This document shows positions 18,750 through 34,800 of a DNA stretch of 37,326 bases, piece after piece. Location of the stretch: the NCBI RefSeq assembly GCF_006385685.1, contig NZ_VFRP01000032.1, positions 1-37,326 of the forward strand. The letters run 5' to 3'. The translations under genes were made by a program, and so were the position numbers. The notes beneath the pieces were generated by a model. That model made no database searches, had not been told where the DNA came from, and was given only the letters and a program-made list of their open reading frames with translations. Every line of letters starts with the position of its first letter. Positions within the stretch are counted from its first letter, which is position 1. This DNA comes from Amaricoccus solimangrovi. Lineage in GTDB: Bacteria; Pseudomonadota; Alphaproteobacteria; Rhodobacterales; Rhodobacteraceae.

Positions 18750-18839
18750 GCCCTGCCCTGATCCTCGTTGGCGGATCAGAACATTATCCAACGTGCCATC
18801 GTGGCGCTACATGGCCGATGGGTCACAACCCAACATTCT

Positions 18840-18950
18840 CGCGGCATCATCCTTGTTTCAATACGCGATACGAAAAAAAATCAAACATGCACAAAAATTC
18901 AGTTTAAGGCCGCTTTCGGGGTTGGCTCTATCGGATAGGTTGCGATAGCT
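18840..18950. promoter_or_regulatory. AT-rich divergent control region with dyad
   Basis: Between the leftward T4SS operon and the rightward repC-like gene (431 bp) lies the most AT-rich stretch of this part. It holds an 8-A run and ATACG-CG-ATACG near 18860-18880, followed by an inverted repeat CTATCG (18928-18933) / CGATAG (18943-18948). Divergent promoters and an operator are expected here. I cannot assign -35/-10 boxes with confidence, and the rest of the interval shows no gene. Confidence 0.4.
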
Positions 18951-19180
18951 ACCGCGTCAACCTCAACGACGGAGAGAATTGTGCATCGGCTGGCGATAAC
19001 GCCCGGCCAAAAGAGTAACCCCCCGGCGGCACGGGCCACCGAGGAGAAGCAGTCCAAAGTCTTGGAAGTGACAGCCCAAGCCTAGGATCTTCCCCATGAT
19101 ATGACAAGGAAAAACGCCGCTTCGGCGAACAGGACCGCCCTGTCCTTCCCGTCCCGCCGGTTTACCCGGAGAGAAGACCC

Positions 19181-20254
19181 ATGCCCGACGCGATATCAGG
19201 CGCGCCAAGCTCACACGCTGGGCGATACTCGCATAAGGAGTTGTTTCGACTCCTCGACGACGCCGTGCTCGCCCTTGGCTTGCCGGACGGCGTCCAGCGC
19301 ACCGCGCAGGTCCTGATCCGGTTCATCCCGTCGGACGCGCCGGTGCCGGTGAGCCCGATCCGGGTCCAGGACCTCGCCGAGCAGCGCGACGTCGATCCCC
19401 GCACGGTGCGCGCGCATATCCGCCGGCTGATCGCACTCGGTCTCGTCGAGGATACCTCGCTCGGCGGCGGGCATCGCGTGATCCACCGCCGGTCCGGCCG
19501 GATCGTCGCGCTGCGCGGCATCGACTTCGCGCCGATGCTGGCGCGCGCCGACGCGTTGCGCGCCGAAGCGGCGGCGATCCGGCTCGGACAGGAGGAGCGC
19601 CTCCGGCTCCGCGCCGAGATCTCCGCGCTGCGCCACCGCTTCCGGAAAAGCGCCGCGACCGCTTGCGCGCGCATCCTCGAGGCCTTCGCCGCGCTGCCCC
19701 GGCGCTACGGACACCTGCCCGGCGCCGCGCTCTCCGCGTTGCGCGATCGCCTGATTCAGTTGGTCGCGGCGGCCACTCCGATCGAATGCGACGAGGCGGT
19801 GCCGGGAGCGTCGCCAGTCGAGCCGCCGTGCCCGAAACCGTCCGACCAGTCGGACGAATACCGCCGACCTGACCTTCTCGAAGAGGGAAGAAAGCTTGTT
19901 ACGCCGGACCTCGACGTGGGCGCCGTCGCCGATACTCTTCCCCCTGCCTGGCACGCCGAACTGGCGCGCGGCGGTCCGTGGAGCTGGACCGGCTTCATTG
20001 CCACCGCCCATGCGCGGTCCATCGCGCTCGGCGTGCCCCGGGCGACCTGGGACGCGGCGGTCGCCACGCTGGGACGGCATAACGCGGCGCTGCTCACGCT
20101 CGCGGCCGGGGCCGAACACATCCGTTGCCCGGCCGCCTGGATGCGCGCGCTCGTCAGCCGCGCCGGCGAAGGATCGCTCGATCTCTCCGCCAATCTCCGT
20201 TCCCTGATCTCACGAAGGATTCGCGAATGCTCCGGTTCCTCTCTCCGCTGTTAG
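19181..20254 (+). CDS. RepC-like plasmid replication initiator (357 aa)
   Basis: An N-terminal winged-helix region (about 55-125) contains DLAEQRDVDPRTVRAHIRRL and ALGLVEDTSLGGG. A helical linker follows (about 125-200), then a divergent middle, and a C-terminal RepC-like module with ARSIALGVPRATWDAAVATLGRHN and CPAAWMRALVSRAGEGSLDL. This is the two-domain plan of RepC initiators of alphaproteobacterial repABC plasmids. No repA or repB is next to it, so it may be a stand-alone initiator or a mobile-element replication protein. ATG 19181 has GGAGAGA upstream. Its 3' end overlaps the next gene by 28 nt. Confidence 0.7.
   Translation: MPDAISGAPSSHAGRYSHKELFRLLDDAVLALGLPDGVQRTAQVLIRFIPSDAPVPVSPIRVQDLAEQRDVDPRTVRAHIRRLIALGLVEDTSLGGGHRVIHRRSGRIVALRGIDFAPMLARADALRAEAAAIRLGQEERLRLRAEISALRHRFRKSAATACARILEAFAALPRRYGHLPGAALSALRDRLIQLVAAATPIECDEAVPGASPVEPPCPKPSDQSDEYRRPDLLEEGRKLVTPDLDVGAVADTLPPAWHAELARGGPWSWTGFIATAHARSIALGVPRATWDAAVATLGRHNAALLTLAAGAEHIRCPAAWMRALVSRAGEGSLDLSANLRSLISRRIRECSGSSLRC
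19840..19855. repeat. Perfect dyad inside the repC-like gene (possible origin element)
   Basis: GTCCGAC (19840-19846), a 2-nt spacer CA, and GTCGGAC (19849-19855) form a perfect palindrome in the sequence between the two RepC domains. It is followed by a locally AT-richer stretch (19880-19905). In repABC plasmids the replication origin lies in the middle of repC, so this is the natural place to look. Function is inferred only. Confidence 0.4.
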
Positions 20255-21621
20255 CCCTCACCGCGCTGGCGTTTCCCGGTCCGCTCGCGCGTCCCGCCAC
20301 CGCGCAGGACGGAACCTACGACATGGACTGCGCGGTTATCCTCTGCATGGCCGGCGGCTTCCCGGCGGTCGCGGAATGCGACCGCGCCTATGACTACATG
20401 ATCGACCGGATCACCGATCATCCGCCGAAATCGCCATTCGGAGTCTGTTCGATGGCCGATGGCAGGAGCTATGACGGCTACGACCTCGACTACGCAATCG
20501 GATATCGCGGGGCGGCGAGCTCATACTCCTGCCCGGCCGGAACCCGGCTCCATCTCGAGGCCGGCGCGCCGGTCACCGCCTTCTGCTACCAGACCATCGC
20601 GCCGGTCATCCAGCCGAACGGGCTCTGCGTCGACAGCTATCGCGGCATCACCGCCGCCACGTTCCGCCAGTTCCGGGCCGAGCTGACCGTCGAGCCCGGC
20701 ACCGACGCCGAATGGGCCGCGCCCGAGACCGTCATCGAGACCGAGGTCGCGCCACCCGCGCGCTACGAGACGCCCTGCGGGGGCGGCGATGTCGCGGTGG
20801 TCGGCGGCGGGGACGAGGGCGTTCCCCCGGCGTTCGAAGACTGCGTCCCGGCCTGGAGCCCGCCCGCGACCGAGTTCTGCGACTTCGCCTTTCCGCTCGC
20901 CCGCGCCAACCTGCACGACTACGACCTGAGCGATCCCCGGATGGAGCGCGTCAGCTGCGGCCCCGGCCCGGATGGCGGGACCGCGATGGCGGTGCGTCAG
21001 TACGCCGGCGCCGAGGTCTCGCTGATGAGCATCGGCCGCCATGCCTTCCCCGAGGCGATGAAGGCGGCCGAGGTCGTCCGGCTCTCGGCGGAGTTCTACA
21101 TCCCGTCGAGCTACGACTGGACCTATGCCGGCCGGCTGCCGCTCGGCATCAACGTCGGCCCCTGGACCTCGGGCGGCAAGACCGGCGCCCGTCAGTCCGG
21201 CTCCAGCATCCGGCTCCATGTCTGGCCCGACAATGGCGGCACGCTCGGCATCTACAGCTACAACTTCGACCGCAGCTCGAGCGGCGCGGTCGATCGCGGC
21301 GTCACGAAGCAATGGGGCCAGGGCGCCGCGAAGGTGACCGCGCGGCTGCCGCGCGACCAGTGGATCACCGTGGTGCTCGAACTCGCGCTCGACAGCCCCG
21401 GCGCCGATCGCGACGCCGCCGGCATCAGCCTCTACGACGCCGCCGGCCGGCTGATCGGCGCGGACAGCAGCGGGCCCCGGCTGACCTACCGCCGCGCCGG
21501 CGACGACACCGGCTTCACCGGCGCGATCTTCGACGACAAGCTCAATTCCAGCGCCGCCCGGGCGGCGAGGAACCAGCAGTACTACGTCCGGAACTGGCAG
21601 GGGCAGGCCTGTGGGCGGTAG
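20227..21621 (+). CDS. Exported TrbM-like / lyase-like fusion protein (464 aa)
   Basis: ATG 20227 with GAAGGA 7 nt upstream overlaps the repC-like stop. A Sec signal ends near ATAQD (residue 27). The first mature domain has DMDCAVILCMAGGFP and conserved Cys residues (35, 40, 51, 74), the pattern of TrbM/KikA mating-pair proteins. A Cys-containing linker follows. The C-terminal half (about 230-460) has SAEFYIPSSYDWTYAG, LPLGINVG, SIRLHVWPDNGGTLGIYSYN and a basic RLPRDQWITVVLEL stretch. That resembles jelly-roll polysaccharide lyases of the PL14/PL20 kind. Both assignments are tentative. The combination suggests a periplasmic or surface protein that aids conjugation, perhaps by acting on envelope polysaccharide. 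Confidence 0.6.
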   Translation: MLRFLSPLLALTALAFPGPLARPATAQDGTYDMDCAVILCMAGGFPAVAECDRAYDYMIDRITDHPPKSPFGVCSMADGRSYDGYDLDYAIGYRGAASSYSCPAGTRLHLEAGAPVTAFCYQTIAPVIQPNGLCVDSYRGITAATFRQFRAELTVEPGTDAEWAAPETVIETEVAPPARYETPCGGGDVAVVGGGDEGVPPAFEDCVPAWSPPATEFCDFAFPLARANLHDYDLSDPRMERVSCGPGPDGGTAMAVRQYAGAEVSLMSIGRHAFPEAMKAAEVVRLSAEFYIPSSYDWTYAGRLPLGINVGPWTSGGKTGARQSGSSIRLHVWPDNGGTLGIYSYNFDRSSSGAVDRGVTKQWGQGAAKVTARLPRDQWITVVLELALDSPGADRDAAGISLYDAAGRLIGADSSGPRLTYRRAGDDTGFTGAIFDDKLNSSAARAARNQQYYVRNWQGQACGR

Positions 21622-21769
21622 GCCTGTTTCCCCCCTCCCGCGTCGCTCCGCCAATGGACGAGCTCCGGAAGGCCGGATCGCTCCGCGAGGCGAGGCGCTC
21701 CCGGATGGGGGCGAACCGGTCGAAGCGCATCCCGAGCGTGGACGGGATTGCGACCTCGCCGGAGGCGCG

Positions 21770-21867
21770 CGCTCCGCGTCGACGCCGGCCGGAGCCTCGG
21801 CCCGTCGACTCCATAGACCTCTCGGTGCGCGTCGATGAACGCCTTCATCGCTTCAAGCAACTGTCTT
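21770..21867 (-). pseudogene. Possible IS3-type orfB remnant
   Basis: On the minus strand one frame reads LLEAMKAFIDAHREVYGVDG, which resembles the N-terminus of IS3-family OrfB (FID.HR..YGVEPIC). It then degenerates, and other minus frames carry further fragments, so any transposase here is decayed. The rest of 21622-21867 shows no gene. The IS110 element lies immediately to the right. Confidence 0.3.
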
Positions 21868-22945
<1,078 letters not shown>

Positions 22946-22997
22946 AGGAACAGTATCGCAGATCACCAGGAGACAAGGGCGGGATTCTCTTCGTCAT

Positions 22998-23024
22998 GGC
23001 TCCAGTCTCTCAAGAGTTGGAGCC
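22998..23024. repeat. Hairpin between lysR-like gene and IS110
   Basis: GGCTCCA (22998-23004) pairs with TGGAGCC (23018-23024); a smaller CTC/GAG stem forms inside the loop. It lies 60 nt after the lysR-like stop codon on the minus strand and could slow transcription, but no T-run follows on either strand. It may also belong to the left end of IS110. Confidence 0.35.
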
Positions 23025-23085
23025 TCTGGGCAACCCGGGGCGGTGCAGACAAGCGTGATCCGTCGCGTCGAAATCGTCAAAGCGG

Positions 23086-24222
23086 TCACCCAGTCCCCCA
23101 ACCCCTGATTTCGGCGATGAGCGCCTCGGCGGCCAACGAGAGGCTGGCGCCCTCGCGGCGCACGAGGGCCACCTCGCGCTCGATCGAGAGCCGGCCTAGG
23201 TCGAGGGGGGCGAGAAGTCCGGCGTCGATTTCGAATTGGAAAAGCCTGAGCGAGATGAAGGCGACCATGTCGGATGCCGCGAGGAGCCCGCGGATCATGC
23301 TCAGGTCGGCGGCCTGCACCGCGGGTCGTGGTGGAGGCAACTTCTCCTCGATGAACCGTGCCTCGAAGAGCGCACGGTTCATCGAACTGCGCCAGGGCAG
23401 GATCCAGCGAAGCGCCGACACCTCGCGCAGGGTCAGCGGTCCAGCACTGGCCAGAGGGTGGCCCGCGCAGCCGAGCACCGCCATCTCGTCGCGCAGCAAG
23501 GGCTCGACCACGAGCCCCTTGGGCTCGAAGCCCGGGCCCGGCACCGTGACCACGGCGTCGATCTCGCCGGAGCGGAGCCGAGCGACAAGGATCTCGGCCG
23601 GGGCCTCGACCATCTGCGCCTGGATGCCGGGCGCGCGGGCGAGGCAGGTTCCGATCGCGCGCGGCAGGAGATCCGCCCGCGCCATCGGCAGCGTGCCGAT
23701 CACCGCCGCGCCGACGACGGCGCCCTCGGCGGAAGCGAGCTCGGAGGCCGCGTGCCGGAGTTCGGCGCGGATGCGGCGCGCGCGCAGGAGCAGCCGCGAC
23801 GCGGGATCGGTCGGTGTCATGCCCTGCAGACCGCGGTGAAACAGCCGGAAGCCGAGCGCCGCCTCGATCCGGGCGAGGGCCATACTGGCCCCGGCCTGGC
23901 CGATGCCGAGCGCCGCCGCGGCCGAGGAAACGGCGCGCGTGTCCGCGAGCGTGAGCAGGAGCAGGAGCTTGCGGCCGTCGTGGAGCAGGTGGCGCGGCGC
24001 GGTCGGTGAGCCCTGCCCGGATCGGGCGAGATCGGCAGTCGCGGCCGTCACCTCCTCCTCGATGCGAGCCAGGCGCGCGAGAAGCGTTCGCCCATAGGCA
24101 TTGGCGCGGAGGCCGCCGGCGGTACGCTCGAAAAGCGCGACGCCGGCCGCCGCTTCCGCCTCGGAGACCCCGCGGGTGACGGACGACACCAATTTGTAGA
24201 GGGTTCGTGCCGCGCCGGTCAT
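23086..24222 (-). CDS. LysR-family regulator with a duplicated, damaged first HTH (378 aa)
   Basis: The main LysR part begins with a second helix-turn-helix (TLADTRAVSSAAAALGIGQAGASMALARIEAALGFRLFHR, about 88-130) and continues into the effector-binding domain (VIGTLPMARADLLPRAI, RSGEIDAVVTVPG, LLRDEMAVLGCAGHPLA). Before it is another LysR-like HTH (GAARTLYKLVSSVTRGVSEAEAA, ALFERTAGGLRANAYG). ATG 24222 starts inside this first HTH. Homologous residues continue upstream without a start codon, and a one-base shift near 24253 joins them to a further LHLRALR stretch. Either the N-terminus is damaged or a short form is made. It is a likely regulator of the neighbouring sulfur genes. Confidence 0.75.
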   Translation of the reverse strand: MTGAARTLYKLVSSVTRGVSEAEAAAGVALFERTAGGLRANAYGRTLLARLARIEEEVTAATADLARSGQGSPTAPRHLLHDGRKLLLLLTLADTRAVSSAAAALGIGQAGASMALARIEAALGFRLFHRGLQGMTPTDPASRLLLRARRIRAELRHAASELASAEGAVVGAAVIGTLPMARADLLPRAIGTCLARAPGIQAQMVEAPAEILVARLRSGEIDAVVTVPGPGFEPKGLVVEPLLRDEMAVLGCAGHPLASAGPLTLREVSALRWILPWRSSMNRALFEARFIEEKLPPPRPAVQAADLSMIRGLLAASDMVAFISLRLFQFEIDAGLLAPLDLGRLSIEREVALVRREGASLSLAAEALIAEIRGWGTG

Positions 24223-24327
24223 CGCGCCATGCGCCGCGACACCCGCGACGATCGCAGCGCGCGCAGATGAAGAAAGAGCTGCTCCGCGACGTCCTAGGGC
24301 GAGGACTCGGCCCGGGCGGCGGGCGCG

Positions 24328-25227
24328 TCAGCCAAGCGCGGCGGCGACACGCGCGCCATCCTCCCCGGCTTCCCTGAGCCCGCCCCGGAATCCCGAGCGG
24401 ACGGAACCCGCCGCCCAGAGGCCGGGCAGCCCAAGCCGGCCGCCCTCCTCCGCGACGAGGCCGCCATCGGCGCCGCGTGGCAGCGACGGGGGTACGAGCC
24501 GCGTATCCGCCGCGCCGCCCGCGAGGATGAAGACACCGGCGCAGGCGCGCGTCGCGGGTCCGGACGGGGTGAGGAGCGTCGCGCCCGTCACGCCCTCCTC
24601 CGACGTGCCATGGATGGCGCCGAGGCGGCTCTCGCGCAGGAGGTGGACATTGGTGGCGGCGAGCACCGGCTCCACGAGCGCCGCGCGGGCGCGCGGGCGG
24701 GCTCCGCGCAGGACGATGGTGACCGAGCGGGCGAAGCGCGCGAGGATCGCGGCCTCCTGGAAGGCCGCGTCGCCGCCGCCGACCACGAGCGCGTCGCGGT
24801 CCCGGACTCGCGGGCCGTCGCAATCCGCGCAGCGGGAGACGCCGCTTCCCGCGAATTCCGCCTCGCCCGGAACACCAAGCGCGCGGGGGCGGGTGCCCGT
24901 CGCGAGGATGACGTGACGCGCGTGGTGGCTGCCGGAGGGCAGGCTCATCCGCCATCCGCCGCGCGGCTCGGGCGAGAGGTGGGTGGCGGCTTCGAAATAG
25001 GGGACGATGCCCCCATCCATGTTCTCCATCGCGACGATCGCGCCGAGATCGGGGCCGGAGCCGGTGAAGGGGACCGGCGAGGGGTCGAGCCGGAGCACGG
25101 TCGCGACCGCGCCGCCCGCCATCACCGCCTCGCAGGTCGCGACCGTGAGACCCCGGTCCCGTGCGGCCCGCGCCGCGCGGAGTCCGGCGTAGCCCTGGCC
25201 GATCACGATGAGATCGAAGTCGTGCAT
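24328..25227 (-). CDS. Thioredoxin-reductase-like flavoprotein (299 aa)
   Basis: An FAD-binding GxGxxG motif lies near the N-terminus (VIGQGYAGLRAA) and an NADPH-binding VVGGGDAAFQEAA at about 148. Between them is the redox pair CADC (C133, C136) in the position of TrxB CATC. The ATGTRP and C-terminal LWAAGSVRSGFRGGLREAGEDGARVA motifs are also typical. It is a two-domain pyridine-nucleotide disulfide oxidoreductase, predicted to reduce a thiol or disulfide partner with NAD(P)H. Its place beside a UGSC-family protein makes that the obvious candidate partner, by inference. A 56-nt gap follows the coiled-coil gene. Confidence 0.85.
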   Translation of the reverse strand: MHDFDLIVIGQGYAGLRAARAARDRGLTVATCEAVMAGGAVATVLRLDPSPVPFTGSGPDLGAIVAMENMDGGIVPYFEAATHLSPEPRGGWRMSLPSGSHHARHVILATGTRPRALGVPGEAEFAGSGVSRCADCDGPRVRDRDALVVGGGDAAFQEAAILARFARSVTIVLRGARPRARAALVEPVLAATNVHLLRESRLGAIHGTSEEGVTGATLLTPSGPATRACAGVFILAGGAADTRLVPPSLPRGADGGLVAEEGGRLGLPGLWAAGSVRSGFRGGLREAGEDGARVAAALG

Positions 25228-25283
25228 GGCGCTCTGGCACCGGCCGCCCCGGCGCGAGGCCCAGGCGCGCGCGGCGTCCTCTC

Positions 25284-25667
25284 TCAGGCGTCGGCGCTCT
25301 CGAGCGCGCTGAGGCGCTCGCGGGCGGCGTCGAGCTGCGCGGCCAGCTGCTCCTTGGCGAGCGCGATCGCGCTGTCCTTGGCAGCGGCGAGCAGTTCCTC
25401 CTTGGCGTGGCTCTCGTGGAACTGCCAGACCTGCGCCTCGCCGCGATCGACGCGGGCATGGACGCTGCCCGGCGCGTCGCCGGACTCGACCCAGACCTGC
25501 CAGAAGACCGGCCCCACCCAGCCGGTGATCGAACCCGCGGGCTTGCCGACATGGACGATGACATTGTCGCGAGAGAGATCCTTCACGAGACCGTGCTCAC
25601 CCAGGATCTGGATGTCGAGCCGCTGGTCGTTCCTCAGGGCCTCAATGGCCGCCGCGTCGTATTGCAT
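25284..25667 (-). CDS. Small coiled-coil protein of the sulfur island (127 aa)
   Basis: The gene has an excellent AAGGAGGAAA site just before ATG 25667. The first 85 residues are beta-rich (RLDIQILGEHGLVKDLSRDNVIVHVGKP, then WVGPVFWQVWVESGD); the last 40 form a charged, Ala-rich coiled coil (EELLAAAKDSAIALAKEQL). There are no Cys residues, signal or membrane segment. The family is not recognised. It heads the leftward flavoprotein-lysR transcript and is divergent from the UGSC gene, so it probably shares their control region. Confidence 0.75.
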   Translation of the reverse strand: MQYDAAAIEALRNDQRLDIQILGEHGLVKDLSRDNVIVHVGKPAGSITGWVGPVFWQVWVESGDAPGSVHARVDRGEAQVWQFHESHAKEELLAAAKDSAIALAKEQLAAQLDAARERLSALESADA

Positions 25668-26160
25668 GGGTTTCCTCCTTGGTGAACGCGCTTGATGCTG
25701 GCGCGGGCTCGTTCGGCACCGCCGTCCATATCGGGGTCGCGGAGTGCGCCCCATGCCTCGACCCATAGGGCAAAGGTCGCCGCTGGCCTATCTCGCATCA
25801 CCAAATCGCAAGGTCCGGCGACAGAGATGGACCGTCGATACCAGCCACGAAGGCTAGGTCGCTGGGCTTGGCAGCGCCGCCGCGACGATAAATTCGTCGC
25901 CATCTCAGATGGTTATTCGACGTGTCGCGGTTCCGTCTCACCACGGCGCGGCCCGTGGGCGATGGATGCCAGAACCTTGGGCATCACAACAATGCAAGAC
26001 CGAGCGACATCGCAGGCATTGTGACGAACGGACCACCCAGACTAACTGAGGCCCAGCGAGACAAATAACCCCAGTCCGCTGAAAAAATGGGAAGACAGGC
26101 ATGCACTGTTCTCGTCAATCCATATTATTTTTCTTGTTTTCTGAAATAATGGAGGAAATT
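25668..26160. promoter_or_regulatory. Divergent control region with two adjacent palindromes
   Basis: This 493-bp interval has no convincing gene; short ORFs in it are Arg-rich and lack ribosome sites. It contains two abutting dyads: GCGACGA / TCGTCGC (25882-25888 and 25894-25900) and CCATCT-C-AGATGG (25900-25912). The last 60 bp before the UGSC gene are strikingly AT-rich (26118-26160) and end in GGAGGAAATT directly before ATG 26161. The dyads are candidate sites for the neighbouring LysR-type regulator; promoter boxes are not assigned. Confidence 0.45.
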
Positions 26161-27876
26161 ATGGATCTTAATAGCTATGAAGTTGTCTGGCCGCGCGGCC
26201 GTCAGTTCAAGGACGGATCCCGCCTCGCACGGCGCCTCCAGACGCTCGAAGGCAAGACGATCGCCCAGCTCTGGGACTGGATCTTCAAGGGCGACAAGAT
26301 GTTCGAGGTCTGGGAGCGCGAACTGAAAAAGCGCTACCCGGGGGTGAGCTTCGTCGACTGGCGGGAGTTCGGCGAGATCCACGGGCATAACGAGCGCAAG
26401 GTGCTCGAGTCGCTTCCGGAGAAATTCGCCCGCTTCGGCGTCGATGCGGCGCTGGTCGGCGTCGGCTGCTGCGGAAGCTGCACCGCCGGCGTGACGCCCG
26501 CGGCGATCCATATCGAGAAGATGGGCATTCCCACGGTCTCGATGATCTGCTCGGGCTTCGAGATGCAGGGCAAGATGACGGCCAAGGGCCTCCAGATGCC
26601 GAACCTGCCCTATACGGTTCATCCGGGCCATGTGAACTTCGCCACCGACGAGGAGCTTGATCGCATCGCGGCGGGCGTCATGCTCGACCAGGTGATCCGC
26701 GGCCTGACCGTCCAACCCACCGAGGAGGCGCTGAGCACCGAACCCGGCGCGACCGATGTCGTCTTCCGCGGCAACTACAACGCGGTGCAGCAGGAGTTCC
26801 TGAAGAACGAATGGAGCGAGGGCCTGCCGGTGGTGCCGCCGACGCGCGAGGCCGTCGAGGAATTCCTGCGGTTCACCGATCGCGACCCGGACGAGGTTCT
26901 CGGACTGGTGCTGCCCGACAACCGCGAGGCGACGGTCTGGAACATCGCGGTGAACGGCGTGATCTCCGGCTGCCGGCCGGAATACATGCCGGTTCTCCTC
27001 GCCCTCGTCGACGCGATGGTCGATCCGACCTTCGGCGTGGAGCACCTCGGCCAGACGCCCGGCACCGAGACGCTGATCATCGTCTTGGGCAAGATAATCA
27101 AGGATCTGAAGTTCAACCACGGTCAGGGCCTCCTGCGTCCGGGCTTCCAAGCCAATACCTCGATCGCGCGGTTCTGGCGGATGTACCTGCGCAACATCGG
27201 CGGCTTCCTGCCCGGCAAGGCGGACAAGGGCTGCTATGGCGGCAACTTCCGCATCGTCGTCGCCGAGGACGAGGCCGCCTGCGCGGAAGTGAGCTGGCCG
27301 ACCCACGGCGAGGACGAGGGGCTGAGGCGCGGCGAGAACGCGGTCACGATCACCGCCTGCACCGAGATGACCCAAGCGATCGAGGTGGGCGACCCGGAGC
27401 CCGAGCAGATCCTGAAGAACATCGAGGCCCGCATGGCCGACAACAACATGTTCATCCAGTTCTTCTTCCGGGGCATGGTGACGCGGCCGACCGTGATCCT
27501 GACGCCGCTCATCATGCGCCAGCTGGCCGCGAAGGGCTGGACCAAGGAAGCGGTGCGCCGCCACCTCTACGAAAACGCCAAGCTCCGGGTCTCGCGGCTC
27601 TCGGGGATGATCCTCAACCGCTTCTACAAGGGCATCAACGACAGGAACTGGCCCGAGCAGCTCGGCACCTCGATGGATGTGGAGCGCGACATCCAGATGG
27701 TCTCGAAACCCGAGGATTTCCTCATCGTCATCGCGGGAGACCCGGCGCGCGACCATGTGATGATCGGCTCGAGCAATGGCTACATCGGCTTCCCGGTAAC
27801 GAAGCGCGTGACCCTGCCGGCCGATTGGGACCGGCTTCTGTCGGGCGAGACGGAGAAGATCGCCGAGCTCGCCTGA
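26161..27876 (+). CDS. UGSC-family protein, cysteine form (571 aa)
   Basis: The signature is GVGCCGSCTAG (C103, C104, C107). In the UGSC family of (seleno)proteins this site reads U-G-S-C with selenocysteine first; here the U position is TGC-encoded Cys104 (26470-26472), preceded by an extra Cys103. The N-terminal domain (1-190) carries this redox site. The C-terminal domain (200-560) begins WSEGLPVVPPTREAVEEFL and includes NIAVNGVISGCRPEYMPV, GQGLLRPGFQANTSIARFWRM and GKADKGCYGG, which I know only as the usual UGSC companion domain. Family members are thought to be thiol redox enzymes, but their reaction is not established to my knowledge. Start 26161 is set by GGAGGAAATT; an upstream ATG at 26101 lacks a site. 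It is cytoplasmic. The neighbours are sulfur-transfer genes and a TrxR-like protein. Confidence 0.75.
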   Translation: MDLNSYEVVWPRGRQFKDGSRLARRLQTLEGKTIAQLWDWIFKGDKMFEVWERELKKRYPGVSFVDWREFGEIHGHNERKVLESLPEKFARFGVDAALVGVGCCGSCTAGVTPAAIHIEKMGIPTVSMICSGFEMQGKMTAKGLQMPNLPYTVHPGHVNFATDEELDRIAAGVMLDQVIRGLTVQPTEEALSTEPGATDVVFRGNYNAVQQEFLKNEWSEGLPVVPPTREAVEEFLRFTDRDPDEVLGLVLPDNREATVWNIAVNGVISGCRPEYMPVLLALVDAMVDPTFGVEHLGQTPGTETLIIVLGKIIKDLKFNHGQGLLRPGFQANTSIARFWRMYLRNIGGFLPGKADKGCYGGNFRIVVAEDEAACAEVSWPTHGEDEGLRRGENAVTITACTEMTQAIEVGDPEPEQILKNIEARMADNNMFIQFFFRGMVTRPTVILTPLIMRQLAAKGWTKEAVRRHLYENAKLRVSRLSGMILNRFYKGINDRNWPEQLGTSMDVERDIQMVSKPEDFLIVIAGDPARDHVMIGSSNGYIGFPVTKRVTLPADWDRLLSGETEKIAELA

Positions 27877-27898
27877 GAAGCGGGGCAGTCACGGGACG

Positions 27899-27914
27899 GG
27901 CGCGCTCGCGCGCC
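27899..27914. repeat. GC palindrome after the UGSC gene
   Basis: GGCGCGC (27899-27905), TC, GCGCGCC (27908-27914) form a perfect dyad 20 nt after the UGSC stop codon. It has no following T-run. With the next hairpin it may make a two-part transcription stop between convergent genes. Confidence 0.4.
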
Positions 27915-27935
27915 GGTCTCCCGAACGAGGAAGCC

Positions 27936-27960
27936 GCCGCGGTCCCGCGGCAGTCTTCTT
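27936..27960 (+). terminator. Probable rho-independent terminator of the UGSC gene
   Basis: GCCGCGG (27936-27942), TC, CCGCGGC (27945-27951) form a strong stem followed by AGTCTTCTT, which is T-rich on the plus strand. It sits about 60 nt after the UGSC stop and before the convergent desulfurase gene. The T-run is imperfect. Confidence 0.55.
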
Positions 27961-28009
27961 GATACCGGCCTCCACCGGACTGACTGACGGGGCGGCGCGG
28001 AGCGGCCCG

Positions 28010-29254
28010 TTATACGGAGCCTCCGGGCAGCGCCTCGCGGGCGACCGCCGCCCGCGCGAGATCCCTGACCGCGTCGCAGAAGAGCTCGACCTCCGCCTGG
28101 GTCGTGTAGAGGCCGAAGCTCGCGCGGCAGAGCGCCCCCACGCCAAGCGTCCGCAGGAGCGGGCGCGAGCAGAAGCTCCCAGCGCGCGTCGCGATGCCGA
28201 GGCGGTCGAGTTCGACCGCGATCTTCCGGGCATCCAGTCCGGCGATCTCGAAGGAGAGGATCGGGCCGGAATCGTCGGCACCCCACACGCTGACGCCCTC
28301 GATCCCGGAGAGCCGGCGCCGGGCATGGGCGCGCAGCCCCCGCTCGTGCGCGGCCACCTGCTCCATTCCCAGCCGCGTGAGGTATCGCAGCGCCACGCCG
28401 AGGCCGATCTGCGGGACGATGGCCGGCGTGCCGGCCTCGAACCGGAGCGGGAGGCCGGCATAGACTACGCCCTCGCGCGTGACGTCGCGGATCATGTCGC
28501 CGCCGCCCCGGAACGGCCGCGTTTCCGCCATCCGCTCCCGCCGCGCGTAGAGGGCGCCCGATCCGCTCGGGCCATAGAGCTTGTGGCCGGTGATCGCATA
28601 GAAATCGCACCCGATCGCCGCGACATCGACGGATGTATGCGCGGCCGTCTGCGAGCCGTCGACCAGCACCGGCACCCCGCGCTCCGCCGCGCCCCGGCAG
28701 ATCGCCGCGACATCGACGAGACCTCCGAGCACGTTCGACATGTGCGAGACCGCCACCAGCCGGGTGCGCGGCCCGATCGCGTCGAGCACCGCGCCCGGGT
28801 CGAGCGTGCCGCCCTCCCCGAGATCGACCCACCGCAGCCTCACCCCCTGACGTTCGCGCAGGAAGTGCCAGGGAACGATGTTCGCGTGATGCTCCAGGGC
28901 CGAGAGCACGATCTCGTCGCCCTCCCGAAGCCGGGGCGCCGCCCAGGCGTAGGAAACGAGATTGATCGCGTCGGTCGCCCCGGAGGTGAAGATGATCTCC
29001 TCCTCCGAAGCGGCTCCGAGGAAGCGGGCGACGATCTCGCGGGTCGATTCGTATCGTTCCGTCGCAAGACTGGACAGGTAGTGAAGGCCGCGATGGACAT
29101 TCGCGTATTCGTTTTCATAGGTCTCCGCGATCGCCTCGATCACCGCGCGGGGCTTCTGCGCCGAGGAGGCGGTGTCGAGATAGACGAGCGGATGGCCGTC
29201 CACCTCGCGCGACAGGATGGGAAAATCAGCGCGCACCGCCTCGACGTCGTACAT
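28010..29254 (-). CDS. SufS/CsdA-type cysteine desulfurase (414 aa)
   Basis: This is a PLP enzyme that removes sulfur (or selenium) from cysteine to form a persulfide. Visible are YLDTASSAQKP, the HHANIVPW motif, VSHMSNVLGG, VLVDGSQTAAH, the PLP lysine in ITGHKLYGPSG (K225) and the active-site loop TRAGSFCSRPLL (C362). In classical SufS the loop reads RAGHHCAQP, so the residue before the Cys and the following two differ. Start 29254 follows AAAGGAGG. No sufBCD genes are near, so Fe-S assembly is less likely than feeding the TusA/DsrE-like carriers encoded divergently. Confidence 0.9.
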   Translation of the reverse strand: MYDVEAVRADFPILSREVDGHPLVYLDTASSAQKPRAVIEAIAETYENEYANVHRGLHYLSSLATERYESTREIVARFLGAASEEEIIFTSGATDAINLVSYAWAAPRLREGDEIVLSALEHHANIVPWHFLRERQGVRLRWVDLGEGGTLDPGAVLDAIGPRTRLVAVSHMSNVLGGLVDVAAICRGAAERGVPVLVDGSQTAAHTSVDVAAIGCDFYAITGHKLYGPSGSGALYARRERMAETRPFRGGGDMIRDVTREGVVYAGLPLRFEAGTPAIVPQIGLGVALRYLTRLGMEQVAAHERGLRAHARRRLSGIEGVSVWGADDSGPILSFEIAGLDARKIAVELDRLGIATRAGSFCSRPLLRTLGVGALCRASFGLYTTQAEVELFCDAVRDLARAAVAREALPGGSV

Positions 29255-29439
29255 TTGGAACCTCCTTTCAGGCTCGGGTGTGTCATAGCCCGGTCTCTCC
29301 CGCCGCGCCCTGCCGAGTTGTTGTCCGGCCCTCACCTGGCGTGACCCCCCTCAGCTTTTCTCACGGCTGTGTAACAGCGTTCGATCGCACGGCGGCGAGA
29401 ATACCGCCTATGGTCCCGGCCAAGGACTTCCTCCCCGGA

Positions 29440-29509
29440 CTGGGCTGCCCGGCGCCTGCCGGGCGGCCGCTTCTTTTCGCGGGCGGACGCGCCGGACAGC
29501 CCAGGGGAG
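29440..29509 (+). promoter_or_regulatory. Structured leader before the tusA-like gene
   Basis: CTGGGCTG (29440-29447) can pair with CAGCCCAG (29497-29504), enclosing a hairpin GCCCGGC / GCCGGGC (29447-29453 and 29458-29464) that is followed by TTCTTTTC. The outer 3' arm runs into the ribosome site AGGGGAG (29503-29509) of the gene starting at 29516. Such a fold could hide the ribosome site or act as an attenuator. It is seen as sequence only; the rest of the divergent interval 29255-29515 shows no gene. Confidence 0.4.
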
Positions 29510-29515
29510 CCGCGG

Positions 29516-29752
29516 ATGAACGGGGAGAGTGAGGAGCGCTGGGACGCGGGGGAGCTTGGCTGCGGCGAGCTCGTCGTGCTGCTCCGGATGCGCCTGCGGC
29601 GGATGCCGGGCCGGATACTCCACCTGATCGCCCGGGACACCGGGGCCGCCGAGGACCTGCCTGCCTGGTGCCGGATGACCGCCAACACGCTCGAACGTCA
29701 CGACCCGGCGACTGCGAGCTTCTGGATCCGCTCGAAGTCTGACTGGAACTGA
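29516..29752 (+). CDS. TusA-like sulfur carrier (78 aa)
   Basis: The small protein has the TusA fold: strand-Cys-helix DAGELGCGELVVLLRMRLRRM, then a strand and DLPAWCRMTANTL. The carrier Cys is C16, but the canonical CPxP motif reads CGEL, so both prolines are lost. A second Cys (C52) lies in the conserved DLPAWCR segment. It is predicted to hold a persulfide and pass it on, receiving it from the divergent desulfurase. The same altered motif occurs in the TusA domain at 32242. It is the first gene of a rightward operon with dsrE-like and later genes. Confidence 0.8.
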   Translation: MNGESEERWDAGELGCGELVVLLRMRLRRMPGRILHLIARDTGAAEDLPAWCRMTANTLERHDPATASFWIRSKSDWN

Positions 29753-29778
29753 GAACAACACTGGTACCGGAGGGAAGA

Positions 29779-30141
29779 ATGCCCGGAAAATTCGTCGTCT
29801 CGATCACCTGCGCCAAGGACGACACTGACAAGGCGACGGTGGGCTTCGTCGTCGCGAACGCCGCCGCCGCCTCGGACAAGGACACGGTCGTCTTCCTCTC
29901 GACCGAGGGCACGCGCCTGTCACAGAAGGGGTACGCCGATGACATCCACGAGGAAGGCTTCGCGCCGCTCGGCGAGCTGATGGCGAGCTTCGCCGAGGCG
30001 GGCGGCGTCATCTATGTGTGCTCGCCCTGCTTCAAGAAGCGCGGGCTCGACGAGGACAATCTCGTCTCGGGCGCGAAGGTGGTCGGCGGCGCGAAACTGG
30101 TCGAGTTCATGAGCGACGGCGTCTCCTCGGTCAGCTACTGA
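29779..30141 (+). CDS. DsrE-like sulfur-transfer protein (120 aa)
   Basis: This is a Rossmann-like DsrE/DsrF fold: KFVVSITCAKDD with Cys11, a KATVGFVVANAAAASDKDTVVFLSTEG segment, and the Cys pair VYVCSPC-type IYVCSPCFKKRG (C81, C84). The region before that pair matches the conserved active-site position of DsrE. A GGAGGGAAGA ribosome site precedes ATG 29779. Partnership with TusA in sulfur relay is established for the families and fits the 26-nt spacing here. It is cytoplasmic. Confidence 0.85.
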   Translation: MPGKFVVSITCAKDDTDKATVGFVVANAAAASDKDTVVFLSTEGTRLSQKGYADDIHEEGFAPLGELMASFAEAGGVIYVCSPCFKKRGLDEDNLVSGAKVVGGAKLVEFMSDGVSSVSY

Positions 30142-30149
30142 GGCGCGCG

Positions 30150-30659
30150 ATGATCCCGGTCCGCCTGATGCTCGCGACCTTCCTGCTCGTTGCCCTCAGC
30201 TATGTCGCGCTCTCCTTCGCGCTCTTCGAGATGCCCGCGACCGAGACCGCGGCCGCGGATTGCGGCTTCCTCCCCGGCGAGTTCGTCTCGGCGGGCGAGC
30301 TCACCTTCGGCAGGACCGAGGCCTTCGCGGTGAGCTTCGTTCGCAAGCAGGAATATCTCACCGCCGCGTCGCTCGGCCTCGCCGGGGCCTTCCTCGCCTT
30401 CGCGCTCACCGCCGGCCGGCGCGGCGGCGCGGCCTCCGCGGGGGCGGCGGCCGGAGGCGGGCTGATGGCGCTCGGCGCGGTCTGCGTCGGCTGCCTCGCG
30501 CCGGCGCTCTCGGTCGTCGGGCTCGGCGTGCTCGGGAGCCTCTTCGCCGGGGTGCCCAAGGCGCTCCTCTTCCTCAACACGCTCGCGCTCACCGGCTGGG
30601 GCACGCTCTACCTCTCCCGCCGCCTCGCCACCTGCTCCCCCGCCGCATCGAGGGCCTGA
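30150..30659 (+). CDS. Membrane protein with a Cys pair in a membrane helix (169 aa)
   Basis: Four or five hydrophobic segments are seen: LMLATFLLVALSYVALSFAL, YLTAASLGLAGAFLAFAL, LMALGAVCVGCLAPALSVVGLGVLG and ALLFLNTLALTGWGTLYL. The CVGC pair followed by APALSVVG resembles the Cys-containing first helix of MerT-type carriers, though overall similarity is not evident. A polar stretch after the first helix contains a further Cys. It lies 8 nt after the dsrE-like stop and 3 nt before the next gene, so it is in the same operon. It may move a sulfur compound or electrons across the membrane. Confidence 0.75.
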   Translation: MIPVRLMLATFLLVALSYVALSFALFEMPATETAAADCGFLPGEFVSAGELTFGRTEAFAVSFVRKQEYLTAASLGLAGAFLAFALTAGRRGGAASAGAAAGGGLMALGAVCVGCLAPALSVVGLGVLGSLFAGVPKALLFLNTLALTGWGTLYLSRRLATCSPAASRA

Positions 30660-30662
30660 CCG

Positions 30663-32234
30663 ATGAAATCGCTGCTGCTCGCCTGCGCCGCGCTCCTCGC
30701 GGGCCCCGCTTTCGCCCCCGCCTACGCGGATGACGCGGCGCTGCTCACCCCGGCGAAGCCCGGCTGGCCGCTCGCCCATCCGATCGCGACCGCCGACATT
30801 CCCACCCCGCCCTTCTCGCTCCCGACGGAGCGCGGCGTGAAGCCGGCCTATGTCGCCTCCCTGCCCGGCCTGCCGCAGGGGCGCAAGATGACCGACGACT
30901 TCGGCCGCGAGACGCTCAAGTACGATGGCGTCTTCATCCGCGGCAGCCGGGTCGAGAATGGCGAGGTGGTGATCCCGCCGGGCGGCCTCGCCTATCTCGA
31001 GGACACCTGGGGCGGCGAGGTGGCGCTGCGCGGCGAGAAGGTGCCGATGCTCGGCCGCGACGTGACCTATGTCGATTACGACATGTCGATCGTGGTGAAG
31101 CATGACGTGACGATCCCCGCCGGCCAGGCGGTCGCGGTCGGAGGCACGGTCTATCAGTACTACGCCACCGTGGGCCACGAGCAGATGGCCAACAACACGC
31201 TGCATGTGAAGACGATCGCGGGCACAGACTGGGAATGGGCCTTCGGTTCCCCGGTGCTCTCGGCGGGCGAGACCGGCTGGTGGGGCGACCGCTTCGCCCA
31301 GCTCTACAACCAGGGTCAGGCGCGCGAGATCAAGCGCGAGGCGATCACTTTCGACTGGCTCTCGGGCGTGCGCATGGACCGGATGCTCTACGCGACCGAC
31401 CCGCTCTTCGCCGGGCTCGCGGGTGCGGGTGACAGCTGGAAGGTCGGCGGCCGCGAGCTCCGGGTCGCGGCGGTGGACGAGACCGCGGGAACCGTGACGC
31501 TGGAGCTTCTCGCGGACAGCAAGGTGACGGTGACCCGCGTGCTCGGGCCGGTCCAGGCCGACCGACTGATCGAGGACGACACGGCGCGCAAGGCGCTGGT
31601 CTTCGAGGATGGCGACATGGTCGCCTTCCTGTCGCCCTGGCCGAAGGGCTTCGACGGTGGCAAGGCGAGCCTCAAGGTCTACGGCGGCGCCTTCGCGCTC
31701 GGCTACGGCGCGGATTACGCGCGCGATCCCCGGTTCGCGAGCTGGCCCGTCGGCTGCCCGACCGGCCATTCCTTCGGCTACATGCTCACCAACAAGGACG
31801 AGATCCGCCTCCGCCCGGGAGAGGCCTACGCGGGTCCGGAAGGCTATTTCAAGGTCGTGGTCGACGCCGCCGACGGCGCGGCCGTCACCGCCTGGCATGT
31901 CGAGGACCGCGACGGGAACCGCTCGATCAATCTCGGCGGGCCGGAAGTCGCCAATGTCGATCTCGTGCTCGGTCAGGGCCGGGTCGCGGGTCAGGCGATC
32001 CTGAAGGACATCGGCCGCGCCATGCTCACCCGCGCCTATGGCGCCGAGGTCGCGCTTCAGAACGCGGCCGCGCCCGAAGGTGCGCCGGCCGCGGCGCCGG
32101 TCTCGGAGCCGCCGGTCTCGGAGGCCGCGGTCGCGCCCGCGGCCGGACTGACCCCCGCGCTCGGCCTCGCCTGCGCGGTTCTCGCGCTGGCCTCGGGCGC
32201 GGTCGGCTACGAAGTCGCCCGGCGCGGGAAGTGA
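30663..32234 (+). CDS. Large exported, C-terminally anchored protein of unknown family (523 aa)
   Basis: The protein has a Sec signal (cleavage near PAYADD, residue 22) and an extracytoplasmic beta-rich body of about 435 residues (for example GVFIRGSRVENGEVVIPPGG, VTYVDYDMSIVVKHDV, QADRLIEDDTARKALVFEDGD). A Pro/Ala/Glu linker and a final membrane helix (LGLACAVLALASGAVGYEV) end in RRGK. The body has almost no Cys residues and many aromatic residues and acids. This is a signal/stalk/anchor design, as in S-layer-like or surface binding proteins. I do not recognise it. In a sulfur operon it may bind a substrate in the periplasm or at the surface. Confidence 0.8.
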   Translation: MKSLLLACAALLAGPAFAPAYADDAALLTPAKPGWPLAHPIATADIPTPPFSLPTERGVKPAYVASLPGLPQGRKMTDDFGRETLKYDGVFIRGSRVENGEVVIPPGGLAYLEDTWGGEVALRGEKVPMLGRDVTYVDYDMSIVVKHDVTIPAGQAVAVGGTVYQYYATVGHEQMANNTLHVKTIAGTDWEWAFGSPVLSAGETGWWGDRFAQLYNQGQAREIKREAITFDWLSGVRMDRMLYATDPLFAGLAGAGDSWKVGGRELRVAAVDETAGTVTLELLADSKVTVTRVLGPVQADRLIEDDTARKALVFEDGDMVAFLSPWPKGFDGGKASLKVYGGAFALGYGADYARDPRFASWPVGCPTGHSFGYMLTNKDEIRLRPGEAYAGPEGYFKVVVDAADGAAVTAWHVEDRDGNRSINLGGPEVANVDLVLGQGRVAGQAILKDIGRAMLTRAYGAEVALQNAAAPEGAPAAAPVSEPPVSEAAVAPAAGLTPALGLACAVLALASGAVGYEVARRGK

Positions 32235-32241
32235 GGCGGCG

Positions 32242-33741
32242 ATGGATCCCGTCGCCCGCCACGACCACCAGCCCGATGTGTCCTTCGACGGCGGCGATCT
32301 CGATTGCGGCAACGGGCTGCTCCTGCTGATCCGCCGTCACATCGACCCGCTGCCGCGCGGCGGGCTCCTCGAGATCCGCTCGACCGAGATCTCTGTCGAC
32401 GAGGACCTGCCCGCCTGGTGCCGGCTGACCGGCAACGAGCTCGTCTCCTGGACCAAGGTGGCGAAGCAGCGCGCCTTCCTCGTCTGCAAGGGGCGGCTGG
32501 ACGAGCGCGAGGCGCGGCGACCCCCCACCGCTCGCGCGCCCGAGCCGGTTCCGGCCGAGGCGCCGCGCGCCCGCGTGCCGGTGGCCCCGCCGCCGGTCCC
32601 GCCGCTCGCTGTGACCGGCATGGGCTCTTGGCCGCGGCCGCGCTGGATGATCGAGGCCATGCACGCCCATGTCGAGGGGCGGCTCGGCGAGGCGGAATTC
32701 CAGGAGACCGCGAACGACGCCGTTCGCCTCGCCATCGCGGCGCAGGAACGCGCGGGCGTCGATCTCGTGACCGATGGCGAGCAGCGGCGCGACAGCTACG
32801 CGAGCTTCGTCGCGAGCCGGCTCGACAATTGCCAGCTCATCCCGCTGACCGATCTGCTGCCCCTCGTCGATCACGCCGAGGAATTCGAGGCTGAGCTACG
32901 CGCGCTCGACATCCCGGCGGGCGATGTAAGGCATCCGGCGGTCTTCGGCCCGCTCCGCCGGTCGCGGCCCTTGGTGGCGCACGAGGTCGACTTCGCGCGC
33001 ACGGTGACGCGCGCGCCGGTCAAGGTCGCCCTGCCCGGCCCCTATCTGCTCACGCGGACGATGTGGATGGAATGCATCTCCGACCACGCCTATCCGAGCC
33101 GCGAAGCCCTCGCCGAGGACATCGTCCGGGTGCTGCGCGAGGAACTCGCGGAGCTCATGGACGCGGGCGCGGCGATTGTCCAGTTCGACGAGCCGGTGCT
33201 CTCGGAAGTCGTCTTCTCCGGCCCGAAGAGCAAGCGCTCCTTCATGTGCGGCGCGCTATCGGAATCGCTCGGGCCGGAGCATGAGCTCGGCTTCGCGCGC
33301 GATCTACTGAACGCCGTGCTCGACGGCGCGTCGCGCGACCGGACGGCGCTGCATGTCTGCCGCGGAAACTGGACGCCCGACGAGGCGGTTGCGCTCGCCG
33401 GCGGCTACGCGCCGCTTGTTGAGACGCTCGCGGCGGTGCGGACCGGCGCCTATCTCCTCGAGATGTGCACGCCCCGCGCGGGCGAGATGGAGGTGCTCGC
33501 CGCGCTTCCGGAGGAGGCGCGGATCGGCGTCGGGGTCGTCAACCAGAAGATCCAGACCGCCGAGGCCGTCGAGGCGGTGGCGGCGCGGATCTCCCGGGCG
33601 ATCGACCTTTTCGGGCGCGAGCGGGTGCTCCTCCACCCCGACTGCGGTTTCGCGACCTTCGCGGACAACCCGATCTGCGGTGGCGGACTGGCCGAGGAGA
33701 AGCTCACGGTAATCGCAAGGGCCGTGGAGCGCTTCCGCTAG
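32242..33741 (+). CDS. TusA-MetE fusion: sulfur carrier joined to a zinc methyltransferase (499 aa)
   Basis: Residues 1-85 form a TusA-like domain (GGDLDCGNGLLLLIRR with C22, DLPAWCRLTGNEL with C60), close to the separate TusA at 29516. A Pro/Ala/Arg linker (about 90-120) joins the MetE-type catalytic barrel (125-499). That barrel starts TGMGSWPRP and has QFDEPVL (about 314-320) and all zinc ligands: H371 and C373 (LHVCRGNW), E407 (LLEMCTP) and C468 (LHPDCGF). The MetE N-terminal domain is absent, so it is a core-MetE enzyme. Methyl transfer to or from a thiol is the family chemistry; the fused carrier suggests the thiol or persulfide is on TusA. It is the last gene of the operon. Confidence 0.85.
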   Translation: MDPVARHDHQPDVSFDGGDLDCGNGLLLLIRRHIDPLPRGGLLEIRSTEISVDEDLPAWCRLTGNELVSWTKVAKQRAFLVCKGRLDEREARRPPTARAPEPVPAEAPRARVPVAPPPVPPLAVTGMGSWPRPRWMIEAMHAHVEGRLGEAEFQETANDAVRLAIAAQERAGVDLVTDGEQRRDSYASFVASRLDNCQLIPLTDLLPLVDHAEEFEAELRALDIPAGDVRHPAVFGPLRRSRPLVAHEVDFARTVTRAPVKVALPGPYLLTRTMWMECISDHAYPSREALAEDIVRVLREELAELMDAGAAIVQFDEPVLSEVVFSGPKSKRSFMCGALSESLGPEHELGFARDLLNAVLDGASRDRTALHVCRGNWTPDEAVALAGGYAPLVETLAAVRTGAYLLEMCTPRAGEMEVLAALPEEARIGVGVVNQKIQTAEAVEAVAARISRAIDLFGRERVLLHPDCGFATFADNPICGGGLAEEKLTVIARAVERFR

Positions 33742-34800
33742 AGCGGCGCCCTTTCGGTTTGAATCGATTGGGGATTCCCAAGGCGGCCCGTTTCTGACTC
33801 TTTGCTTCGCGAGGCAGGTGTCGGAGCGGCGGGATGAGCAAAACACTGTCGATGGATCTGAGGCGACGGGCGCTGGCGGCGGTTGACGCCGGGGTGAGCC
33901 GTCGGGCGGCGGCGGGTCGCTTCGGGGTTTCGGTTTCCTCGGTGATCCGCTGGGACGCGCAACGACGCACGACGGGGAGCTTTGAGCCGAAGCAGCGGGG
34001 TGGGGATACGCGGTCACGGCGGATCGAGGCGCGGCACGCGGATGTCATGGCGGCGTTCGAGGAGGAGCGCGACCAGAGCCTCGAGGAACTGCGTGCCCGC
34101 CTGGCCGAGCGCGGCATCGCCGCGTCGAGCTCAGCCCTGTCGCGCTTCTTCCAACGTCATGGGCTGACGAGGAAAAAAGACCGGGCACGCGGTCGAGCAG
34201 GAGCGCGCGGACTTGCCTCGAGCAAGTGCCGCGCCTGGTTCGAGGCGCAGCCCGATCTCGATCCCGGCAAGCTCGTGTTCATCGACGAGACCTGGACGGC
34301 GACGAACATGGCCCGCACCCATGGGCGCTGCCGTCGGGGCGAACGACTGCGGATGGGGTTTCCTCACGGCCATTGAAAGACCACGACGCTCATCGCCGGC
34401 CTCCGCCTCGACGGCATGGTCGCCCCGATGGTTCTCGACGGTCCGGTCAACGGCGACTGGTTCGAGGCCTATGTCGCGAAGGTGCTGGCGCCGACGCTTC
34501 GCCCCGGCGACATCGTCGTCATGGACAATCTTTCCAGCCACAAGCGCGCCTCGGTCAGGGCGGCGATCGAGGCCAAGGGTGCGCGGCTCACTTTCCTTCC
34601 TCCCTACAGTCCCGACTTCAACCCCATCGAAATGGCCTTCGCGAAGCTGAAGGCGTTGCTGCGCAAGGCGGCCGAGCGAACCGTCGACGGCCTCTGGAAC
34701 ACCATCGGCCGCCTCGTCGACGTCTTCTCTCCCCAGGAATGCGCCAACTACTTCGCCGCAGCGGGGTATGATGCAGATTGATCGGGAAATGCTTGTCTTA
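33742..34800 (+). mobile_element. IS630-type element
   Basis: The transposase reading frame (33834-34781) marks an IS630-family element. Its left flank begins immediately after the TusA-MetE stop; TA at 33740-33741 fits the TA target of this family. I could not find a matching inverted repeat after 34781, so the right end is uncertain or lost. The left edge is an estimate. Confidence 0.5.
33834..34781 (+). pseudogene. IS630-family transposase split by an in-frame TGA
   Basis: One frame runs from ATG 33834 to 34781, broken by TGA at 34374-34376. The residues around it read FPHGH-stop-KTTTLIAGLRL. IS630 relatives have Trp here (GHWKTT), so TGG changed to TGA. The first half holds an HTH (DAGVSRRAAAGRFGVS) and the first catalytic Asp (VFIDETW). 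The second half holds Asp (VVMDNLSSHK) and Glu (NPIEMAFAKLK). The two pieces share a frame, so this is a nonsense change, not the usual IS630 frameshift. The element is probably unable to transpose on its own. Confidence 0.85.

Follow-up and report, generated by a model that had tools for sequence, protein, structure and literature searches.

The question raised by a ten-gene cluster in Amaricoccus solimangrovi (positions 23086-33741 of a 37,326-nucleotide stretch of contig NZ_VFRP01000032.1, referred to here as the window) is what a UGSC-family protein, sulfur-carrier families and a methionine synthase-like barrel are doing side by side. The original prediction had read the region as a sulfur or selenium island built around the UGSC protein, and had named a methylated organosulfur or organoselenium compound as a plausible substrate. 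Our analysis points tentatively, at slightly less than even confidence, to a fragment of a mobile selenium island in which one module would gather selenium and the window may be read as a low-selenium gene set. The direct basis for this reading was gene content, a pair of selenocysteine (Sec) and cysteine paralogs, the linkage of the same operon to selA/trxB and selD in other bacteria, and conserved residues. The ten genes named in the original prediction were all present as intact frames, with family support from profile matches or conserved homologs, as follows.

23086..24222, minus strand: LysR-type regulator with two HTH_1 stretches (113 and 63 bits)
24328..25227, minus strand: TrxR-like flavoprotein (Pyr_redox_2, 95 bits) with a CADC pair
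25284..25667, minus strand: small protein with a 53% homolog in Paracoccus aminovorans (L053)
26161..27876, plus strand: UGSC::'Unknown_1' fusion, cysteine form (PF24696, 131.9 bits, cut-off 25)
28010..29254, minus strand: SufS-family pyridoxal phosphate enzyme (TIGR01979, 477.5 bits against a cut-off of 475.1)
29516..29752, plus strand: TusA-like carrier (28.3 bits, just below the 28.6 cut-off), with CG replacing CP
29779..30141, plus strand: DsrE-like protein (61.6 bits) with a CSPC motif
30150..30659, plus strand: membrane protein with a cysteine pair (C-x-x-C) and conserved homologs
30663..32234, plus strand: exported beta-rich protein with a C-terminal membrane helix and conserved homologs
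32242..33741, plus strand: TusA domain (21.1 bits, below cut-off) fused to a single MetE barrel (100 bits), termed TusA::MetE

The cluster is a composite of two modules. Module A consists of the LysR regulator, the TrxR-like flavoprotein and the UGSC enzyme, and module B of the SufS-family enzyme and the plus-strand genes from TusA to TusA::MetE (29516-33741), which are likely to form one operon because their intergenic gaps are 26, 8, 3 and 7 base pairs (bp). The SufS-family enzyme exceeded the curated cut-off of its type and is a candidate cysteine desulfurase, possibly a selenocysteine lyase. UGSC membership was indicated by PF24696 and a CGSC motif, in which the cysteine in question is encoded by TGC at 26470-26472; the protein scored 49 bits against NCBIfam NF041046, below the cut-off of 125, and the flavoprotein scored 140 bits against TRX_reduct, also below cut-off. 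Likely start codons read from the sequence are an ATG at 26161 after GGAGG for UGSC, 29254 for SufS and 25667 for the small minus-strand frame. Neither the membrane nor the exported protein was matched by Pfam or NCBIfam profiles at E 0.1. Among the ten proteins there was no match to selA, selB or selD, and no tRNA was found in the window; the Sec-decoding genes lie elsewhere in the host, on C61. Matches to Hdr-like, DsrAB, rhodanese and lipoate-binding proteins were likewise absent from the ten, and the cluster did not belong to the Dsr/sHdr type of sulfur oxidation.

The UGSC protein has a selenocysteine twin in the same genome. The host's only other UGSC match (C61:26503-28194) was 69% identical (388/564 aligned positions, TGA counted as Cys) and contained one in-frame TGA exactly at the position of the window TGC. 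It comes after selD in an island that also carries selB (342.6 bits; SelB was scored with TIGR00475 and counted when over cut-off), selA, trxB and a tRNA-Sec, as well as paralogs of the window LysR (48% identity) and flavoprotein (47% identity). CapA-like, transporter, LUD and CitE-like genes were named in the C61 island from their translations without a profile search. A further host set on C59 included selA, selB, tRNA-Sec and selD, together with an Rfam match to SECIS_3 (a selenocysteine insertion sequence, SECIS, family) at the start of a frame resembling formate dehydrogenase. This gives the host two Sec-decoding sets; the UGSC protein of the window is, on sequence grounds, the cysteine isozyme of the second (C61) set's selenoprotein. 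Two SelB genes over the cut-off were also found in each of five other operon carriers (G498, G504, G511, G518 and G521).

An in-frame TGA at UGSC was also present in Paracoccus. Other UGSC::Unknown_1 relatives occur with CoA-transferases, TTT/TRAP transporters and hydratases in catabolic clusters, or with acyl-CoA dehydrogenases and major facilitator superfamily (MFS) genes in Sporomusa, and the catabolic clusters are without the rest of the window gene set. Homologs of the window flavoprotein were found in P. aminovorans (45%), P. ferrooxidans (41%) and Neorhizobium (36%), in the last case following the UGSC match; the oxidoreductase annotated two genes before the UGSC match in Variovorax had no match to the window flavoprotein. 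It is plausible that a dedicated TrxR-like reductase serves the Sec/Cys UGSC enzyme. In the plasmid records H15-H23 the best match was confined to the C-terminal Unknown_1 portion of the UGSC protein, and no UGSC relatives were found in viral and phage collections. A weak likeness of UGSC to FtsZ (profile against solved structures, E 1.8e-4) was judged to be a chance effect of glycine-rich motifs.

Named genomes were scanned with TusA::MetE as the query, which identified 146 relatives; the 80 best loci were retrieved, with 1.43 Mb of sequence in total, and their lineages were named from record titles. Some of the contigs are truncated. On the P. ferrooxidans plasmid pFER4 (L031) the operon is followed after 77 bp by selA and an overlapping trxB on one strand, and on the other side lie SufS, a UGSC gene with TGA, Unknown_1, LysR, selB and a tRNA-Sec. 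P. versutus was similar, with selA (again after 77 bp) and trxB on the operon's strand in L067 and a contig that ends within selA in L004. A 21 kb stretch of P. aminovorans (L053) joins module B and several genes of the C61 kind, comprising SufS, the operon, a 137-residue gene, selA, trxB, MFS, flavoprotein, tRNA-Sec and CapA, with the homolog of the window small protein located between TusA::MetE and selA; neither UGSC nor SelB was found within its 21 kb. In a Bradyrhizobiaceae metagenome-assembled genome (MAG; L049) TusA::MetE is followed after 127 bp by selD, with selB, tRNA-Sec and selA further on, and in L058 selB and tRNA-Sec lie about 1 kb beyond the operon. Looser associations were a selD 2.4 kb from the operon on the opposite strand (G670) and, in Mangrovicoccus (L063), homologs of the C61 LUD and GntR genes beside SufS and the operon.

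Genes for SelA, SelB, SelD or tRNA-Sec were present in 4 of the 80 loci (L049, L053, L058 and L067, from three lineages), where about 0.6 would be expected by chance (Poisson 0.003 for four loci and 0.02 for three lineages) if, as we assumed, a 5.2-Mb genome holds 2.2 Sec loci. In L072 a partial likeness to SelB, over 92 residues where the contig ends, was left unassigned. Of the sulfur and selenium named in the original prediction, gene linkage favours selenium in those genomes that show it: in Paracoccus and the Bradyrhizobiaceae MAG the operon is followed in line by selA/trxB or selD, and the host has a Sec-coding UGSC twin beside a full Sec-decoding set.

The operon itself was widespread. 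The 80 loci span Alpha- and Betaproteobacteria, Planctomycetota, Binatota, Rokubacteriota, Obscuribacterales and others, and TusA and DsrE directly precede TusA::MetE in most of them. Family clustering over 82 stretches (the 80 loci, L031 and the window) placed DsrE with TusA::MetE in 72 and TusA in 54, and the DsrE-like homologs were 68-87% identical where found; the module B gene set is an association beyond chance. The slot between DsrE and TusA::MetE was occupied by the membrane/exported pair, by ATP-binding cassette (ABC) genes coding a PhnD-like binding protein, a PhnE-like permease and a PhnC-like ATPase, or by nothing. Because the pair and the ABC genes alternate in one slot, the pair is suggested to do a transporter's job. 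The C-x-x-C of the membrane protein was kept in the 24 homologs listed and Cys365 of the exported protein was invariant in 20 sequences. The structural model of the exported protein (predicted local distance difference test, pLDDT, 80) had as its best Foldseek match the archaeal S-layer domain DUF1608, where the low TM-scores of 0.20/0.30 give a hint only.

In TusA::MetE, Cys22 and Cys60 of the TusA domain and H371, C373, E407, C468, D316 and E317 of the barrel were invariant in 77 of 77 sequences, the latter being residues which we take, from work on MetE, to form the zinc and homocysteine sites. The model (pLDDT 83) best matched B12-independent methionine synthases (3rpd, E 1.5e-19), with weaker Foldseek matches to UroD-type enzymes and a methanogen methyltransferase. 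With a carrier thiol and a thiol-methylating barrel in one protein, a sulfur or selenium atom bound to TusA may be what gains or loses a methyl group.

Two other genes recur near the operon. A small protein of about 130 residues without an NCBIfam match was found close to it in Betaproteobacteria (L079:5841-6221 and 13 other loci). A transglutaminase-like protein, so annotated in L031, recurs on contigs with Sec genes (L169:13457-14482, L170:1104-2204, L031:15897-17003 and L053:4666-5763, where L169 is a stretch of host C59 and L170, like L008, one of host C61), and a distant form of it (25-29%) lies beside TusA-DsrE-TusA::MetE in Planctomycetota and Rokubacteriota (L081, L087 and L098).

From these observations we infer a direction of flow, a substrate, a demethylation step and a mode of regulation. 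Module B would take up a selenium compound, and the MetE barrel would probably shift the methyl group from TusA-held methyl-selenium to homocysteine, yielding methionine and free selenium. The selenium would then be handed via protein-bound thiols to SelD, the product of which would be used by SelA. Module A would pair the UGSC::Unknown_1 enzyme with a dedicated TrxR-like reductase, and the window could be read as a low-selenium set, namely a selenium-free isozyme and selenium-gathering genes under the LysR regulator. The earlier suggestion that the region is under a LysR regulator is a matter of position only, with the LysR gene at the far end and on the opposite strand. The methylated organoselenium guess fits the MetE fusion, and the substrate is likewise something that we infer. 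A wider reading, in which TusA-DsrE-(transporter or pair)-TusA::MetE is a previously unrecognised system that scavenges selenium by demethylation on a TusA thiol across Proteobacteria, Planctomycetota, Binatota and others, with the window as a compact low-selenium response including a cysteine isozyme on a mobile second Sec-decoding island, is put forward as a rather doubtful extension.

Several observations weigh against selenium. The 80 loci were chosen by likeness to the window TusA::MetE protein, and in 76 of them the retrieved flanks contained no clear Sec gene. No distinct hairpin followed the C61 TGA (z 0.73) and Rfam detected no SECIS there; no Rfam families were found in the window, L002, L008 or L009 either. 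In favour of selenium, SelB was found in 65 of 78 carrier genomes (42/49 and 23/29; L078 was omitted, as was L069, which comes from the same MAG as L058), including 30 of 30 that were not MAGs, and all 13 misses were titled MAG, a status taken from record titles; SelD was found in 10 of these 13. In an even sampling of 289 genomes of the host's class (taken to be Alphaproteobacteria, since G473 and G476 coincide with L051 and L094) SelB occurred in 3/3 carriers, these being the host and two genomes also within the 80-locus set, against 38/286 others (p 0.0027). However, in the same draw SelB also occurred in 21 of 41 genomes with a plain MetE-core and no fusion against 17/245 of the rest, and the carriers showed no excess over those 41 genomes (p 0.15). 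The enrichment in plain MetE-core genomes may reflect lineage, genome size or a wider tie between MetE-core and selenium. Because of this control our confidence in selenium was lowered from an even chance to a little under it.

In an even draw of 349 genomes from Burkholderiales, to which Duganella levis belongs, scoring covered only three candidates in each genome and co-occurrence failed, with SelB in 4/10 carriers against 95/349 overall (p 0.28). Within the genus of D. levis it was present in 5/5 carriers against 50/74 overall (p 0.13). SelD was found in 5 of the 6 Burkholderiales carriers without SelB and in 8/10 carriers overall, and this is uninformative because 201 of 279 genomes of the order have SelD; one carrier (G528) had SelB with SelD not found. 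A general rule of SelB co-occurrence was weakened by the Burkholderiales draw and by the plain MetE-core control; co-occurrence is suggestive at best, and it is linkage that carries the case. The Burkholderiales operons may work for selenouridine or for sulfur.

Sulfur is the substance of a competing explanation that we regard as unlikely, though it carries the most weight among the alternatives. Module B would import and demethylate a methyl-sulfur compound such as methanethiol or methanesulfinate and pass the sulfur via TusA/DsrE to cysteine or cofactor synthesis, and Sec genes would join the operon only through common sulfur chemistry. TusA, DsrE and SufS are indeed sulfur-relay families, 6 of 10 Burkholderiales carriers were without detected SelB, and in the one ABC-variant locus tested (L084) PhnE and PhnC exceeded the cut-offs of phosphonate transporters, with the binding protein of this variant scoring 66.5 bits where the cut-off of a putative selenate family is 250. 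The operon-like linkage found is nevertheless to selA/trxB and selD, no sulfur-oxidation gene was among the ten window genes, and SelB was present in all 30 of the non-MAG carriers searched. It is far less probable that TusA::MetE runs toward disposal, methylating TusA-held selenide (or the sulfur equivalent) to a volatile or exportable form that the pair or transporter exports. MetE enzymes normally methylate a thiol, and the residues assigned to the zinc and homocysteine sites are conserved; the PhnD-like binding protein and PhnE permease of the ABC variant are however of importer type and linkage to selA/selD fits supply better.

Improbable, although less so than disposal, is a cluster without functional unity, in which a catabolic module (UGSC, flavoprotein and LysR) and the operon were joined accidentally by insertion sequence (IS) elements. 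UGSC relatives do occur in other clusters, UGSC was matched in none of the 80 operon loci, and IS110 and IS630 elements flank the region, yet the same pairing was found in the Sec island of Paracoccus plasmids with a UGSC of a different subfamily (30% identity). The notion of an island around UGSC was therefore only partly borne out, as the region is composite, and the scattering in relatives that would speak against a single island was seen in the 80 loci, where UGSC is apart from module B, and not on L004 and L031, plasmids of Paracoccus in which the two are together.

No paper describing the TusA-MetE fusion or this operon was recognised among the matches listed from open-licence PubMed Central (PMC) literature. 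The closest known kind is the methyl-selenide (mlp) clusters of anaerobes. Type 1 mlp clusters are Sec-linked and proposed to free selenium from methyl-selenides (Kountz and Balskus, PMC10418091), M. voltae sdmABC being a related case cited there; they combine a UroD-type methyltransferase, a corrinoid protein and an activase and are said to be restricted to anaerobes (PMC10418091). The window shares the Sec tie and a methyltransferase of a MetE-related fold (the weaker UroD matches of the model) and differs in its TusA-fused MetE barrel and TusA/DsrE carriers; no UroD-family Mlp, corrinoid protein or corrinoid activase was matched among its ten proteins. When selenium is scarce, M. maripaludis makes more TusA/TusD, ABC transporters, methyl-selenide methyltransferases and cysteine isozymes (PMC11097638), and the LysR-type HrsM acts on cysteine isozymes in Methanococcus (PMC5322559). 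A scavenging role is favoured because the window has counterparts of each of these components (the TusA, transporter, methyltransferase and cysteine isozyme types of the M. maripaludis response) if the pair is a transporter. This parallel is an analogy and not a test of the selenium role, and M. maripaludis differs in being an archaeon with separate operons and another methyltransferase family.

YedE/YedF/SirA-like genes have also been linked to selenium (PMC5322559, PMC2432076). YedF is a single TusA-DsrE fusion with CPxP and CGxC, whereas the window has TusA and DsrE in separate frames with CG and CSPC, plus TusA::MetE and a membrane protein without a Pfam or NCBIfam match, so that the YedE/YedF arrangement was not found. 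The UGSC-Unknown_1 fusion of PMC2398784 appears to have the same make-up as the UGSC protein of the window and that of C61, 'Unknown_1' being matched by description; the difference is that here a TrxR-like flavoprotein and a selenium island are nearby. TusA::MetE has the architecture of core-MetE (PMC7005905), a single MetE barrel without a folate domain, but adds a TusA domain in front, and the D. mccartyi enzyme uses methylcobalamin (PMC7005905).

The setting of the window cluster is that of a mobile element, with a transposase at each edge.

21868..22857, minus strand: IS110-family transposase, one edge of the island
33834..34781, plus strand: IS630-type transposase frames, the other edge

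A gap of 92 bp separates the TusA::MetE stop from the IS630 frames, whose start corresponds roughly to that of selA in Paracoccus. VirB-type transfer/secretion genes and a RepC-like replication gene lie upstream of the island (window 7779-20254), and together with the IS110/IS630 transposases they make it probable that the contig belongs to a plasmid or a mobile element of similar kind. A search for near-identical plasmids to window 19000-25700 returned short IS matches only. Positions 20227-21621 encode an exported protein that weakly resembles polysaccharide lyase 14 (23.4 bits, below cut-off), and the contig end (34908-37326) is dense with IS5- and IS110-type transposase frames.

The UGSC selenoprotein family is described as abundant in aquatic metagenomes (PMC2398784), and a genome that holds both a Sec and a Cys form, with a separate LysR and flavoprotein for each, offers a handle on the role of this family. 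The supply of selenium for SelD in bacteria, especially from methylated forms, is to our knowledge poorly known outside anaerobes. A marker of three genes, which some bacteria carry in line with selA or selD, would allow this supply to be probed by simple deletion.

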